From Parapristionchus giblindavisi (taxonomy: Eukaryota; Nematoda; Chromadorea; Rhabditida; Diplogasteridae): 64,000 nt of DNA. A program made the translations under genes and the position numbers. Below the pieces are notes generated by a model. That model saw only the letters and a program-made list of their open reading frames with translations, searched no databases and was not told the origin of the DNA. How positions within the stretch are numbered: position 1 is the first letter of the stretch; each line of letters begins with the position of its first letter. Below are positions 2,128 through 54,853 of the stretch, piece after piece. The DNA is taken from assembly GCA_943737045.1 (NCBI GenBank), contig CALSFV010000005.1:744001-808000 (forward strand), in the 5' to 3' direction.

Positions 2128-3176
2128 TTACAGTTTGTAATCCTCGTACTCGCAGAAGACATGAGTCTCGTTGGCAATAGGCTGAAAATAAACCACCTCT
2201 GAAGCAATGATTAGCGTGCTGGAAAATGGTAAGGTTGCATCAAAATAGAAAAATGGAAAACCAAGCGATTCGTTTCTAGGAATTTATTTTCGCTCCTTTC
2301 GGAGGGCAATTTACCTCTTTATCCTTTTGAACAAATTTAGACAACCCTAATGCAATAATAAGGCAATAACACAAACACGCGGGCTAAATATTATACTCTC
2401 GGGAAGCAAAAATTAAAAAGCTCGAATGCACGATTATTTTCACATGACTTTGTTTGGTTTTAAAAAACTCACTTTTTCATATTCAAATCCTGATGGGCTC
2501 GATTGACGGTCTTCGAATGTGGGGACATCGCATACTGCAGGTGGAGGCGGAGCTTCGGTCGCAGGCGGAGCAGGAGCTTCGGTCGCAGGGGGAGCTTCGG
2601 TCGCAGGCGGAGCTTCGGTCGCAGGCGGAGCAGGAGCTTCGGTCGCAGGCGGAGCAGGAGCTTCGGTCGCAGGCGGAGCAGGAGCTTCGGTCGCAGGCGG
2701 AGCAGGAGCTTCGGTCGCAGGCGGAGCAGGAGCTTCGGTCGCAGGCGGAGCAGGAGCTTCGGTCGCAGGCGGAGCAGGAGCTTCGGTCGCTGGTGGAGCT
2801 TCGTTCGCAGGCGGAGCAGGAGCTTCGGTCGCAGGCGGAGCAGGAGCTTCGGTCGCAGGCGGAGCAGGAGCTTCGGTCGCAGGCGGAGCTTCGGTCGCTG
2901 GTGGAGCTTCGGTCGCTGGTGGAGCTTCGGTCGCTGGTGGAGCTTCGGTCGCTGGTGGAGCTTCGGTCGCTGGTGGAGCTTCGGTCGCTGGTGGAGCTTC
3001 GGTCGCTGGTGGAGTCGGAGTTTCGTCGCCTGCGAAAATGTGTCCATGACGAAATAGCAACGAAATGTTTTCTTGTAATATTGTTATCTTGATCAATGCT
3101 GAAACGTACCGTGAACTCCGATCGCCCAGAATATTACCAGAAGAGAAAGTGAGATGATCAATGGACGACGTCTCAT
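2128..3176 (-). CDS. Secreted PATEAP-repeat (mucin-like) protein
   Basis: Three exons, join(2128..2181, 2473..3029, 3110..3176) on the minus strand, 225 aa. Exon 1 encodes a signal peptide (MRRRPLIISLSLLVIFWAIG) and ends phase 1 at CACG|GTACGT. Exon 2 begins after TTTTCGCAG and carries about 20 proline/threonine/glutamate-rich repeats (PPATEA and PAPPATEA variants). It ends in a unique segment VCDVPTFEDRQSSPSGFEYEK at a consensus GTGAGT donor. Exon 3 follows TTATTTTCAG and gives PIANETHVFCEYEDYKL then stop. All phases join cleanly. The two cysteines of the mature protein flank the C-terminal unique region and could pair. The Thr/Pro-rich body suggests O-glycosylation and a surface, mucin-like or matrix role. 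I do not recognise a named family. The antisense frames through the GC-rich array are shadows. Confidence 0.75.
2540..3010. repeat. Coding minisatellite (18- and 24-bp units)
   Basis: Two interleaved unit types: a 24-bp unit (GCAGGCGGAGCAGGAGCTTC core) in the low-coordinate part and an 18-bp unit (GCTGGTGGAGCTTCGGTC) repeated about seven times at 2895-3010. All units are multiples of three, so length changes keep the frame of the PATEAP gene. The array is far more GC-rich than its surroundings. Confidence 0.9.
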
Positions 3177-5740: not shown

Positions 5741-6723
5741 ATGGACTCCGAGTCAGCTCATAAGATTAAGGCGTACCGCGTTGTCGGCTATGCTGCCGTC
5801 ACTTTCTCCGCAGTCGCTGTTCTTTCCATCGCCGTGACTCTTCCCATGGTGTACAACTATGTTCACCACATGAGAAGAACCACCATCCATGAGCTCCAGG
5901 CTTGCAAGGTACTGTAACCAACTTTATTCTGAAATACAGTATTAGTTCAGTAGCTATTTATGTATCTGATACAGTAATAAGTCGGACCGTAAACTAATGA
6001 ATCGTTCTTCAGGGTCACGCCAAGGGAGTCTGGACTGACGTCTTCGCCATGAAGGCTCTTCCTTCTCACAACAGAACCGCCCGTCAGGCTTACTGGGAGG
6101 ATGCTCAGTGCAACGGATGCTGCCTTCCCGGTCCCGCCGGACCTCAGGGAGCCCCTGGACGCGCCGGAACCCCCGGACACCCCGGAGCCCCCGGACAGCC
6201 CGGAAACCCTGGACGTCCCCCAAGCACGCCTTGCGAGCCTCTCACGCCTCCTCCTTGCCAACCTTGCCCCGCTGGACGCCCTGGAGCTCCCGGAGCACCT
6301 GGAGCCCCCGGAAACGACGGAAGACCCGGAGCCCCCGGACAGAAGGGAGCCGATGGATTCCCCGGAGAGCCTGGAAGCCGCGGAAACAACGGATCTGCTG
6401 GACGCCCCGGAAACGACGGAAGACCTGGAGCTCCTGGAAAGTCTGCCCAATCTGGCCGCCCCATCCCCGGACCTCCTGGACAGCCCGGACGCCCCGGATC
6501 TCAGGGACCTCAAGGACCCGCCGGACGCCCTGGAAACGATGGACGCCCCGGAAACGACGGACGCCCCGGAAACAGCGGAGCTCCCGGAGCTCCCGGAAAC
6601 GATGGAGCCCCTGGACAGCCCGGTCGCGACGGAAACTCCGGAGGAGCTGGAGAGCGCGGTATCTGCCCCAAGTACTGCGCCCTCGACGGAGGAATCTTCT
6701 TCGAGGATGGAACTCGTCGTTAA
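5741..6723 (+). CDS. Nematode cuticle collagen
   Basis: Two exons, join(5741..5908, 6013..6723), 292 aa; the 104-bp intron is phase 0 (TGCAAG|GTACTG, CTTCAG|GGT). Structural protein of the collagenous cuticle, made in the hypodermis and secreted as trimers. Residues 1-60 form the conserved N-terminal cuticle-collagen domain with a hydrophobic stretch ([20 protein letters not shown]) followed by [13 protein letters not shown] short cysteine cluster (CNGCC) precedes the Gly-X-Y region, which is broken in the middle by a cysteine-containing interruption ([13 protein letters not shown]). The C terminus [20 protein letters not shown] is the typical non-collagenous tail of one large col subgroup. 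Codon use is strongly biased (GGA, CCC, GAC), as in highly expressed nematode genes. Length matches the family norm of about 290-320 aa. I cannot assign a one-to-one col orthologue. Confidence 0.97.
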
Positions 6724-7960: not shown

Positions 7961-9422
7961 TTAATTACAATTATGATATACATGGGGAGGGCAATGACGA
8001 TGAGGAGCTCTCTTCTCGATCGGAGCTTCTCTCTTCTCGATCGGAGCTTCTCTCTTCTCGATGGGAGCTTCTCTCTTCTCGATGGGAGCTTCTCTCTTCT
8101 CGATCGGAGCTTCTCTCTTCTCAATCGGAGCTTCTCTCTTCTCGATCGGAGCTTCTCTCTTCTCGATCGGAGCTTCCCTCTTCTCGATCGGAGCTTCTCT
8201 CTTCTCAATCGGGCCCTCGTAGCCCAAGCTGCGAGCAGCTCTAGTCTTTGATGCATCGTACTTCGCCTGAAAACAATTATGAAACAATGCTTAATATATG
8301 CAAATCGCACCTGGATCTTGTTGGCGACATGATCGAGTTTGATGAGGGCGCGACCGAGACTTTGGAAGAAGCGAATTGCTGCCTGTGCGTATCCGGGATG
8401 CACTGCATTCACCTGCAAATATTGATTACCTGCATTAAAAGTATTATTGTTATTCATGTCGTTTATCATTTTCATGCTCAATTCCTATTTATCAGCTATC
8501 AAAGAATTGTTTGAGGCCGAGACGACGTCTGACGAAAGCGTGGAGCAGTGCGACGCCGCTGTTTGAGGAGTGTTTGGTCCCAAGTGAAACCCCTAAGGGC
8601 TTATTGGGTCAGTGGTAATGATAGCGCTAAGATTGTGGTGAATTTTCTACAGTAGCCCTATGGATCCAAATACTTTTCCTCTTGGGACCAAGCACACTAA
8701 GAACATCGACGTGAACTAAATGTTCCATGCCTTTAAGATGTACGAGAACCACTGACCTGCTTGATGGTATCAACAATCATATCTTCGACGTATTTCTTAA
8801 GTTCGTTAAGAAGATTGGCATCGATCAGATGGTCATACTTTCCAGAGTCGAGTTCTTGTTCGAAATCGTCAAGTAACTTTAAATAATAATCTTGATCAAT
8901 CAATCTTCAATCAAATTTTAAAAATCATATTGAAAAATATCCAAATCACAAATCGATTACTCGATTTAGTATCTAGTGAATTCCAAATGTTAAATGAACA
9001 AACTCTCCCTGCTCCGGCCACACTCACTCGTAGACAGAGAGGGAGAGTGTGTCCAGAGCGGAGAGTTAGCTCGGGTGTGGCTCGAGTTAGCTCGAGTTAG
9101 CTCGAGTTAGCTCGAGTTAGCTCGGAGCTCGGTGTGAGAGTTAGCTCGGGTGTGGTGTGGATCACCTTGATCGATCCATCTATGGTATCAGCATACGTGT
9201 TCATCTCCTTTTCTTCACGGGTAAGATTACGAAGAAAATTTGCCTGAAATACTCATGCTTTTACTAGATTTAAGAGATCAGACAGCTCACATCTTTCAAC
9301 TTTCTGGCAATATCTTGTCTAAACTTTTCGACGTTCTTGTCAATTTGAGCCCTCTGATCAGGGGTCAAAGACCTCGCCTCGAAGAGGGCTACGGATACCA
9401 AGAGAATGATGAAAGACTTCAT
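7961..9422 (-). CDS. Secreted helical protein with KR-punctuated EAPIEKR repeats (gene A)
   Basis: Five exons, minus strand: 9291-9422, 9166-9243, 8757-8876, 8311-8412, 7961-8266, all phase 0, 245 aa. Exon 1 starts MKSFIILLVSVALFEARS, a signal peptide, directly after the acceptor CTGTTTACAG, so the mRNA is trans-spliced or has a 5'UTR intron. Exons 1-4 encode a charged, mostly helical domain (TPDQRAQIDKNVEKFRQDIA; LLNELKKYVEDMIVDTIKQ; AAIRFFQSLGRALIKLDH) of about 145 residues. The last exon carries one GPIEKR and nine EAPIEKR copies, then APHRHCPPHVYHNCN. Each repeat ends in Lys-Arg, a classic proprotein-convertase site. The helical part is vaguely like small nematode secreted helical proteins (FAR, SXP/RAL-2) but shows no motif that settles it. 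Gene B at 53.5 kb shares its promoter and 5' structure. Confidence 0.8.
8015..8213. repeat. 21-bp coding tandem repeat
   Basis: Nine full 21-bp units (CTCGATCGGAGCTTCTCTCT type, with silent or near-silent variants) plus a partial unit, encoding EAPIEKR on the minus strand in the last exon of gene A. Confidence 0.95.
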
Positions 9423-9632
9423 CTGTAAACAGAGCAGCTTAGGTTAAGGCTAAGGCTAACGATAGGCTAAGGTTAAGGTTAAGGTTAAGGTTAAGGTTAA
9501 GGTTAAGGTTAAGGTTAAGGTTAAGGTTAGGGTTAAGGTTAAGGTTAACTAATGAAAAAGTGAGCGAACCTCGTTGACAGTAGACCGACAACGTCGAAGT
9601 GATAGATTAGTCAATGAAATCGGCCTTATAAA
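9423..9632 (-). promoter_or_regulatory. Promoter, 5' leader exon and CCTTAA-rich 5' intron of gene A
   Basis: On the minus strand a TATA box TTTATAAG (9625-9632) is followed 16 bases later by AATCTATCACTTC. A leader exon then ends at the donor GAG|GTTCGC (9570/9569), and an intron ends at TTTACAG just before the ATG (9422). The intron is filled with CCTTAA hexamers. The promoter of gene B (53247 onward) has the same TATA box, the same 16-base spacing, the same AATCTATCACTTC block and a GG|TTCG junction at the equivalent place. Confidence 0.65.
9441..9549. repeat. (GGTTAA)n hexamer array
   Basis: About 15 tandem GGTTAA/AAGGTT units with occasional variants (GGCTAA, GGTTAG). It resembles, but is not identical to, the nematode telomere hexamer TTAGGC. 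It lies inside the 5'UTR intron of gene A. Confidence 0.9.
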
Positions 9633-9884
9633 GGGAGCAGACATAAAGGACATTGAATGCAAAAGAAGAATTAATATGGAAAAGGTCTATAACAATGAGA
9701 TTACAATATAACTCATGAAATTTGATTTCAGTAACAAAGAATTAAGAAATGCAGAATATTCAAATTGATTTCACTTTCAACAATTAAGAGATGCAGAATA
9801 TGCGAATGAGCTAATATTTTCATTCGTATTTTATATTGTTTACCGCATCGAATTTAGGCCCATCATTTTTTCGTCTTAGTGTAT

Positions 9885-52984: not shown

Positions 52985-53246
52985 TAATATTTGATGATGC
53001 AAGGATCACAACCAACGAATTGTTTTAAAAAAATTTATTCATCGATGCGACACTCATTGTAAGCAGTTTACAATTAATAGCGGAAAAAACTCGACGGTCC
53101 CTATCTGTAAATTTAATTTGAAGAAATGATTGAATTTAGTTAATTTAATTTAATTTAATTTGAATAATTTAATTTAATCTGTGTTATCTTTCAGCTTTAA
53201 TTGAATTAACGCAGTTAATTCCTGTTTGGCATGTCTGCATGTTTCC

Positions 53247-53507
53247 TTTATAAGCCCCATTTTGTTGTCCAATCTATCACTTCAACGTTTTCGTTGGTCC
53301 TACAGCGCGGTTCGTTTCCCTTTCACTCTTTGCATTTACCTTAACCTTAACCTTTACTTTATCCTTATCCTTATTCTTATCTTTATCCTTAACTATAACC
53401 TAGTGGCTCTACTTCCAATCTTTTCGTTAACCTTCAATTTAACCTTAACCTTATTGATGCATTTCAAACTTTCCAAATCTTTAATACCAAGATCTTTTTC
53501 CTTACAG
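53247..53507 (+). promoter_or_regulatory. Promoter, leader exon and CCTTAA-rich 5' intron of gene B
   Basis: TATA box TTTATAAG (53247-53254); 16 bases later AATCTATCACTTC; a leader exon ending GCG|GTTCGT (53309/53310); then an intron rich in TTAACC hexamers ending CTTACAG (53507) at the ATG. Closely matches the gene A promoter. Confidence 0.65.
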
Positions 53508-54853
53508 ATGAAGGTTTTCATTGTGTTCATGCTTACCGTAACCATGGCCCAGAAAGATGTCAATGCATCTATTGAGGATACTCTTAATGGCATTGGCCTT
53601 TTCAAGAATGTACGCGACTCCATCAAGGAATCGTGTACACACGTGAGTTCGAGAGATATTATTATGTGTTTAAATTTTAATTTATTTTATTTGTCCTAAT
53701 TGTATATTTTTATTATGGATAGATGTGTAATTTATTTAATTCAGGAGGGTGATGTTCCTCAATTGAACAAAGATAACAAGCAAGGTGCTCTTCCCACCGT
53801 TCCCGCTCATTTGGACTCTGTCAAAAAGAATATTTTTGGTGGTACTGGGCGTTACTTTGAGGAGGTTAGTCATTCAGATACCCATTCCTTTCTATCATTC
53901 CAAAGATAGGTATGATGACACATCAAAGATCAAAGAATACTTGAAGATTATTACCCCCATCAGTGATGCAATGCACGAGCTACTCGAAGATCTCAAGAAA
54001 TCTTCAACTTCCGAGGAGAATATCAAGGTTAATTCGATATCTTGGGAGTTATTTAAAAGATCATTACTTCAGGATATTCACTATGGAGGAAAGCCCGGTA
54101 AGAATGATGTCAAACATTCTGCATTGTTTGAGCCTATTAAAGGTGCTCTTCCCACCGTTCCCGCTCATTTGGACTCTGTCAAAAAGAATATTTTTGGTGG
54201 TACTGGGCGTTACTTTGAGGAGGTTAGTCATTCAGATACCCATTCCTTTCTCTCATTCCAAAGATAGGTATGATGACACATCAAAGATCAAAGAATACTT
54301 GAAGATTATTACCCCCATCAGTGATGCAATGCACGAGCTACTCGAAGATCTCAAGAAATCTTCAACTTCCGAGGAGAATATCAAGGTTAATTCGATATCT
54401 TGGGAGTTATTTAAAAGATCATTACTTCAGGATATTCACTATGGAGGAAAGCCCGGTAAGAATGATGTCAAACATTCTCATTGTTTGAGCCTATTAAAGG
54501 TGCTCTTCCCACCGTTCCCGCTCATTTGGACTCTGTCAAAAAGAATATTTTTGGTGGTACTGGGCGTTACTTTGAGGAGGTTAGTCACTCAGATACCCAT
54601 TCCTTTCTCTCATTCCAAAGATAGGTATGATGACACATCAAAGATCAAAGAATACTTGAAGATTATTACCCCCATCAGTGATGCAATGCACGAGCTACTC
54701 GAAGATCTCAAGAAATCTTCAACTTCCGAGGAGAATATCAAGGTTAATTCGATATCTTGGGAGTTATTTAAAAGATCATTACTTCAGGATATTCACTATG
54801 GAGGAAAGCCCGGAGCAGCTCGCAACGTGGACCATCCTGAGATGGCCCAATAA
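53508..54853 (+). CDS. Secreted protein with three near-identical 68-aa repeats (gene B)
   Basis: Ten-exon model: 53508-53642, 53745-53864, 53929-54027, 54073-54097, 54143-54222, 54287-54385, 54431-54455, 54500-54579, 54644-54742, 54788-54853; 275 aa. Exon 1 is a signal peptide plus helix (MKVFIVFMLTVTMAQ; LNGIGLFKNVRDSIKESCTH). A linker EGDVPQLNKDNKQ leads into three copies of a 68-aa unit (GALPTVPAHLDSVKKNIFGG; IKEYLKIITPISDAMHELLE; DIHYGGKP), ending GAARNVDHPEMAQ. Each copy is split by the same short introns, including one of 44-45 bp with a GTAAGAATG donor. The acceptor of the second intron in each unit is uncertain: a donor at GGTG|GTACTG joined to CCAAAG|AT would give a variant with RYDDTSK. 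AATAAA at 54862-54867 is a likely polyadenylation signal. Family unrecognised; related to gene A by promoter and 5' structure. Confidence 0.75.
53783..54812 (+). repeat. Three tandem ~358-bp gene cassettes
   Basis: Units begin at 53783, 54142 and 54499 (359 and 357 bp apart) with only a handful of differences, so the amplification is recent. Unit 3 is preceded by a one-base deletion (ATTCTCATTG against ATTCTGCATTG), which falls in the 44/45-bp intron and so is harmless in the spliced model. Confidence 0.95.

Follow-up and report, generated by a model that had tools for sequence, protein, structure and literature searches.

A Lys-Arg-punctuated peptide array at the end of a predicted secreted nematode protein: a candidate prohormone-like tail in an apparently orphan gene family

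Short tandem peptides separated by Lys-Arg (KR) pairs at the end of a predicted secreted protein raise the question of whether the tail is a prohormone-like array, from which peptides would be released, or a repeat of another kind. Such a tail is encoded in a window of 64,000 nucleotides of the nematode Parapristionchus giblindavisi (contig CALSFV010000005.1, positions 744,001 to 808,000), where an earlier note had proposed the former. The array lies in a predicted five-exon coding gene on the minus strand (9422-7961), referred to here as the C5 gene, whose 245-residue product is of the secreted type. All four coding introns are in phase 0 with GT donors. Of the five acceptors, the one preceding the ATG and those of exons 2, 4 and 5 end in cag. 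The exon 3 acceptor, tttaaag, is unlike the usual cag, and ttaaaag stands at the same place in the paralog C488a. The features of the locus are the following.

9624..9635, minus strand: TATA-like box CCCTTTATAAGG of the shared leader (DNA search and leader alignment)
9570..9607, minus strand: predicted 5'UTR segment TCTATCACTTC ... CAACGAG, then a gttcgc donor-like site (alignment of nine leader loci)
9291..9422, minus strand: coding exon 1, MKSFIILLVSVALFEARS...KLKD, with the signal-peptide-like start and the first helix (open reading frame; similar paralog exon), with acceptor-like tttacag before the ATG and donor gtgagc
9166..9243, minus strand: coding exon 2 (acceptor tttcag, donor gtgatc, phase 0)
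8757..8876, minus strand: coding exon 3 (acceptor tttaaag; cross-match to C488a, E 1.2e-6)
8311..8412, minus strand: coding exon 4, VNAVHPGYAQ...KIQ (acceptor tttgcag, donor gtgcga; similar paralog exon)
7961..8266, minus strand: coding exon 5, RAAR linker, peptide array and C-terminal peptide (frame matches exon 5 of the paralogs C488a and C488b)
8231..8242, minus strand: RAAR, a furin-like R-x-x-R before the tail (residues 9-12 of exon 5)
8009..8218, minus strand: array of EGPIEKR and nine EAPIEKR, ten KR, 21-bp unit (unit-by-unit reading)
7961..8008, minus strand: C-terminal peptide APHRHCPPHVYHNCN and stop (translation)

Exon 5 is entered at a ttttcag acceptor just upstream and closed by a TAA that ends at 7961. 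On hydropathy alone, the N-terminus is hydrophobic (windows at residues 1-15, mean hydropathy 2.2-2.65), and amphipathic helical segments fall within residues 25-145 by a helicity estimate that had no control. The helical domain that the earlier note had placed ahead of the array is plausible from this amphipathicity.

The tail itself was described correctly: GPIEKR and nine copies of EAPIEKR, with ten KR, all lie in the predicted last exon (7961-8266), which translates into the linker AKYDASKTRAARSLGY, EGPIEKR, nine EAPIEKR and APHRHCPPHVYHNCN. The 21-bp period is confirmed by TRF (8008-8212, 9.8 copies, 96% matches, score 375). Exon 5 contains ten KR, one R-x-x-R and no further dibasic pair. 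The release of identical pentapeptides is predicted for the nine copies of EAPIE and does not extend to unit 1, whose EGPIE differs and stays joined to upstream residues. The units end in PIEKR, FLP-type RFG before the basic site is absent, and there is no amidation glycine. The latter had been considered unusual, which is not decisive, NLP-14 being given without an amidation mark in the available excerpts of PMC4196577.

The ten units depart from their consensus at eight positions, four in unit 1 and one each in units 2, 5, 7 and 8, and seven of the eight departures are synonymous, the exception being an Ala to Gly change in unit 1. Within units 2-10 the four departures amount to three distinct changes (AGG, ATT and CCC), all silent; three silent changes have a chance of roughly 0.016 in a hand calculation that assumes independent changes and counts 7/21 transitions and 6/42 transversions as silent (the latter by subtraction). 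That this silent-only pattern comprises just three distinct changes counts against a prohormone-like tail. Of the other two minus-strand frames over the array, one contains stops and one is open (RREKLRS), in which the unit departures would incur amino-acid changes. The frame of the array is independently backed by exon 5 of two paralogs, C488a and C488b.

Among the matches scored, the 251-Mb genome (703 contigs) has no second copy of the array. Of 319 candidates in a search with the array, 150 were scored and gave 157 matches, with a single array match (E 5e-45) followed by a next match at 7.7e-12. The 19 next matches given as loci are (NMRENPL)n-like heptad repeats in the matched frame, and none of the 19 contains a dibasic pair. 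One weak match, C7:1553350-1576141, is a tract of about 20 kb that reads as such (NMRENPL)n-like heptads in the matched frame; the longest of its open frames has 2778 residues.

These look-alikes bear on a rather unlikely explanation of the tail as a spacer, uncleaved or incidentally cut, in which EAPIEKR would be a flexible charged extension of a helical protein and KR a by-product of the repeat unit. A 21-bp minisatellite spreads without frameshift, one Pro per seven residues fits a disordered tail, other family members carry anchor-like or very short tails, and uncleaved heptad repeats without dibasics exist elsewhere in the genome. Nevertheless, dibasic sites recur in the paralogs C488a and C488c although the intervening residues differ in C488c, and the lowest dN measured is that of the linker around R-A-x-R.

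Protein searches of the genome found relatives of the C5 gene on contig C488 and weaker ones on C265. C488a has the same five-exon layout in phase 0 and a tail, RATRSSDPIEKRAAHPGPEYVHP, with one KR. It carries a single PIEKR after the R-A-x-R linker (RAAR in the C5 gene, RATR in both C488a and C488b), where the C5 gene has ten units. The array thus looks like a tandem expansion, by duplication of one ancestral PIEKR site that is still single in C488a. Additionally, the start of the C5 C-terminal peptide APHRHCPPHVYHNCN resembles in alignment the AAHPGPEYVHP that follows KR in C488a. C488b looks like a broken copy: its exon 2 lacks both splice signals, exon 3 was not found, and its end, RATRSLGPPESIEIKGTARHGHYYFG, contains no KR.

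The third paralog on this contig, C488c, is of another type:

C488:37389-37979, plus strand: C488c, predicted dibasic peptide precursor with RR and GKR sites and a C-terminal HFG

By its sequence C488c is a candidate amidation-type precursor of 115 residues, starting with MKSLLILLVSVALLQEIRAARPKEEVYRR, continuing with SIG..GYGKR-AAGPEEVY-RR units and ending in KYHFG. It has two GKR, three RR and a C-terminal FG, no helical domain, and a signal peptide similar to that of the C5 protein. The C488c and C5 leaders are 88-90% identical, and at the 3' end C488c is homologous to C488b (score 54 versus a maximum of 29 in 200 plain shuffles). Its two full repeats differ by three synonymous and two nonsynonymous changes. 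Two points count against a prohormone-like tail in the C5 gene: the similarity of its tail to that of C488c is marginal (score 30 versus a shuffle maximum of 29), and the C488c leader has a GC donor instead of GT. A genome search with the C488c protein returned, besides itself, weak matches only (E 0.0025 or worse).

The family is delimited by this leader more than by its proteins. A 111-base promoter/5' leader query found nine genomic places including the C5 gene itself, and the leader of a C660 member used as query added a tenth. The ten loci are the C5 gene, a second gene of the window at 53.2 kb, C488a, b and c, C265a and b, and C660a, b and c, and in 10/10 a hydrophobic start (MK and about 14 residues) lies downstream of the leader. 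Nine leaders were aligned, the tenth being read outside the alignment. CTTTRTA is present in 9/9, C488b lacking the bases after it, and so is TATCACWTC, followed by a GT donor in eight and by GC in C488c. The C660 and 53-kb proteins appear related to the C5 domain through the leader, the signal peptide and short motifs, such as HPG...A..RF in C660a. When the C660a protein was used to search the genome, it matched only itself.

The tails over the ten loci comprise two of multi-site dibasic type, one with a single KR, one damaged and six of other types. C265a and C265b have hydrophobic, anchor-like ends, C660a ends in GKTRADRIQAQ, and AAR(N/Y)VDHP(E/D)(M/L)AQ closes the proteins of C660b, C660c and the 53-kb gene. 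KR conservation, compared within one genome, is partial: dibasic sites are present in C488a and C488c and absent from the damaged C488b and from the tails read of C660a, b, c and the 53-kb gene, which counts against a prohormone-like tail.

Some observations concern individual members. At C265:88000-97900 lie two relatives whose hydrophobic C-terminus resembles a GPI or membrane anchor. One has a single helical domain and the other apparently two, the latter also carrying a Gly/Ser-rich stretch ahead of the anchor-like end. The C265 gene models in the family alignment were put together by eye and some of their exons are incomplete. The second leader gene of the window (53231-54850, plus strand) starts from the shared TATA/5'UTR leader, encodes a signal peptide related to those of the family (MKVFIVFMLTVTMAQ...) and ends in DIHYGGKPGAARNVDHPEMAQ. 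Its middle exons lie within a 358-bp block present in 2.9 copies with 99% matches (53782-54813), apparently a recent exon-block amplification. Runs of the hexamer (CCTTAA)n lie in the leader intron just 5' of the C5 ATG (window 9441-9548) and recur in this intron in several relatives, some of which have more degenerate copies. The runs are telomere-like in appearance and differ from TTAGGC, the usual nematode telomere repeat.

Selection was estimated between the C5 gene and C488a. Over exons 1-4 (144 codons) dN is 0.41 and dS 0.55 (dN/dS about 0.75, p 0.26), and in exons 1 and 2 taken alone dN exceeds dS. The helical domain is thus without significant constraint, which counts against a prohormone-like tail, and the whole gene could therefore be drifting. 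In the linker AKxDASKxRAxRS, 13 codons picked after viewing the alignment, dN is 0.15 and dS 1.32 between the C5 gene and C488a (Fisher p 0.009), and 0.035 and 1.32 between C488a and C488b (p 0.0004; changes at 1 of about 29 nonsynonymous sites and at 6 of about 10 synonymous ones). The agreement of C488b may partly predate its decay, since this copy looks broken. The nonsynonymous rate of the linker does not differ significantly from that of the domain (C5 gene and C488a, p 0.057) or of exon 1 (C488a and C488b, p 0.073). We read the linker with its R-A-x-R as probably constrained while the domain evolves fast, the stretch being short and chosen post hoc.

The same figures bear on the idea that the locus is a non-functional, decaying gene whose array is a neutral coding minisatellite expanded by chance. 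The dN/dS near 0.75 and a sister copy, C488b, devoid of exon-2 splice signals and exon 3 point that way. Still, the five exons of the C5 gene are open with splice sites present (the exon 3 acceptor being weak here and in C488a), the leader is kept, and seven of eight unit departures are silent, so that decay appears very improbable.

The best reading of the locus is, probably, a prohormone-like tail: secretion, cleavage at RAAR and KR, trimming, and nine EAPIE. It is strengthened by the single-KR tail of C488a, by the dibasic C488c under the same leader and by the constrained R-A-x-R linker; the layout proposed in the earlier note thus gains support from some relatives and loses some from those devoid of KR. 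In such a scheme the signal peptide would route the precursor into the secretory pathway, and cleavage would follow, in the constrained R-A-x-R linker by a furin-type convertase and on the C-terminal side of the KR pairs by a PC2/furin-type enzyme. A carboxypeptidase would then trim KR, giving nine EAPIE and one SLGYEGPIE, the further products being a 15-residue His/Cys-containing C-terminal peptide and the helical domain. The computed MH+ values are 558.277 for EAPIE, 964.462 for SLGYEGPIE and 1781.786 for APHRHCPPHVYHNCN in reduced form. In the yeast alpha-factor arrangement KR is likewise followed by Glu-Ala, and a Pro at the third position should impede dipeptidyl peptidases. In nematodes, convertases cleave after KR, and the basic residues are then taken off by a carboxypeptidase (PMC4196577, in excerpt). 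The same genome contains four convertase P-domain matches above cut-off, on three contigs. A PHM-type amidating domain is matched once and in part, at 31.1 bits (cut-off 30). Both are as expected for a nematode.

Homologues were sought in several collections. The 245-residue protein gave 6903 candidates among 5.8 billion proteins, none at E <= 1, and a six-member family alignment gave 2048 candidates in the same collection, none at E <= 1. As a coverage check, residues 1-100 of the neighbouring collagen returned 30 proteins at E <= 0.001, 30/30 with a cuticle-collagen domain, from Pristionchus mayeri, Caenorhabditis and Diploscapter among others; nematodes are therefore represented there. The negative is nonetheless weak for a fast-evolving family, because the first search pass needs shared five-residue words. 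In Pfam, the C5 protein matched no family above the gathering cut-off. For the six family members, E was 0.006 at the lowest over the 25 families displayed out of 43, each of them matched by one or two members. In the PDB, residues 1-167 had a best E of 0.2. By these Pfam, PDB and protein-collection searches the C5 gene belongs to an apparently orphan family. Two matches were read as composition: RNase_Y_N over the array (E 6e-5, below its Pfam cut-off), and a designed helical protein as best PDB match of the family profile (E 0.0012), several of whose 20 listed matches are designed four-helix bundles.

A text search over 5.39 million papers returned no occurrence of EAPIEKR or APIEKR. The string EAPIE occurs in nine papers, on bacterial and plant topics by their titles and abstracts, and was taken as unrelated. 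Among the titles and abstracts listed on nematode dibasic or orphan precursors, none describes the leader family.

By layout alone, the C5 family may work like several known systems. Nematode FLP/NLP precursors have a signal-peptide-like start, many short-peptide copies and KR punctuation, and C488c shares in addition their GKR and C-terminal FG. The C5 gene differs from them by its lack of an RFG motif and of an amidation glycine in the array, by the helical domain in front and by the absence of an orthologue in our searches. The fungal Kex2-processed repeat proteins (KEPs), including the alpha-factor and ustiloxin precursors, similarly combine an ER signal with near-identical, KR-separated repeats (PMC7329392, in excerpt), whereas the C5 gene is an animal gene with a helical domain in front. 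The survey definition, as excerpted, asks for a fungal protein in which Kex2 sites separate three or more repeats, each 8 residues or longer (PMC7329392); the C5 array lies outside it with a seven-residue unit, a five-residue core and a nematode genome. The earlier note had called the combination of a folded secreted domain with a peptide array unrecognised, which was too strong. By analogy, a precedent is provided by Drosophila Baramicin A, a secreted domain followed by short tandem peptides between convertase sites in the excerpted description (PMC9246212). The likeness is one of layout, taken from that description and not from a comparison with IM24 sequence. According to the same excerpts, Baramicin paralogs lose the tail, one having a C-terminal transmembrane segment, which recalls the tails of this family. 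Truncated Baramicins keep the domain and lose the peptides, whereas C488c keeps peptides without the domain.

Baramicin also suggests a defence polyprotein, in which fast-evolving secreted peptides, like those of nlp-29/caenacin or Baramicin, would act on microbes and not on receptors. We consider it unlikely, yet a serious rival since the C488c peptides are Gly/Tyr/Pro-rich and recall the Gly- and Tyr-rich antimicrobial peptides of PMC2453101 (in excerpt). The family is secreted, partly clustered and weakly constrained, with no homologue detected, and Baramicin A, a domain with furin-released short repeats, has truncated paralogs (PMC9246212, in excerpt). The C. elegans nlp-29 cluster resembles the C5 family in being a recently expanded, clustered set of nematode peptide genes, Gly/Tyr-rich like C488c; positive selection is reported for nlp-29 relatives (PMC2453101, in excerpt) and none is shown for the C5 family. 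EAPIE is unlike the nlp-29 peptides, being acidic (computed pI 4.2), five residues only and not Gly/Tyr-rich, whereas cationic charge is a shared feature of antimicrobial peptides and neuropeptides in the excerpts of PMC9246212. The peptides released from a prohormone-like tail would most likely be extracellular signals, a defence role being the next option.

More tentatively, the family as a whole may be a lineage-specific secreted helical family that invents peptide messengers from its C-terminal tail. The linker and one dibasic site would serve as seed, and paralogs would amplify different peptides (nine EAPIE in the C5 gene; SIG...GYG and AAGPEEVY in C488c), and one of them would have shed the helical domain. 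This generalization is possible but goes beyond what we hold probable. If it is correct, the dose of peptide would follow from repeat copy number, which may differ from strain to strain. The origin of new peptide hormones and defence peptides is usually reconstructed from ancient, finished precursors, while here one genome may display a series from a single dibasic site (C488a) through a ten-site array (the C5 gene) to a stand-alone dibasic precursor (C488c). A fast-changing gene family may thus be a source of new signalling or defence peptides, and provided that these are made, both how they arose and how they are dosed could be tested directly in a small animal.

Two further features lie in the same part of the window. 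A two-exon cuticle collagen gene (5742-6723, plus strand) matches nematode Col_cuticle_N proteins over its N-terminal region. At 2440-3096, 24-bp repeats would read as mucin-like PPATEAPA on the minus strand or as ASVAGGAG on the plus strand.
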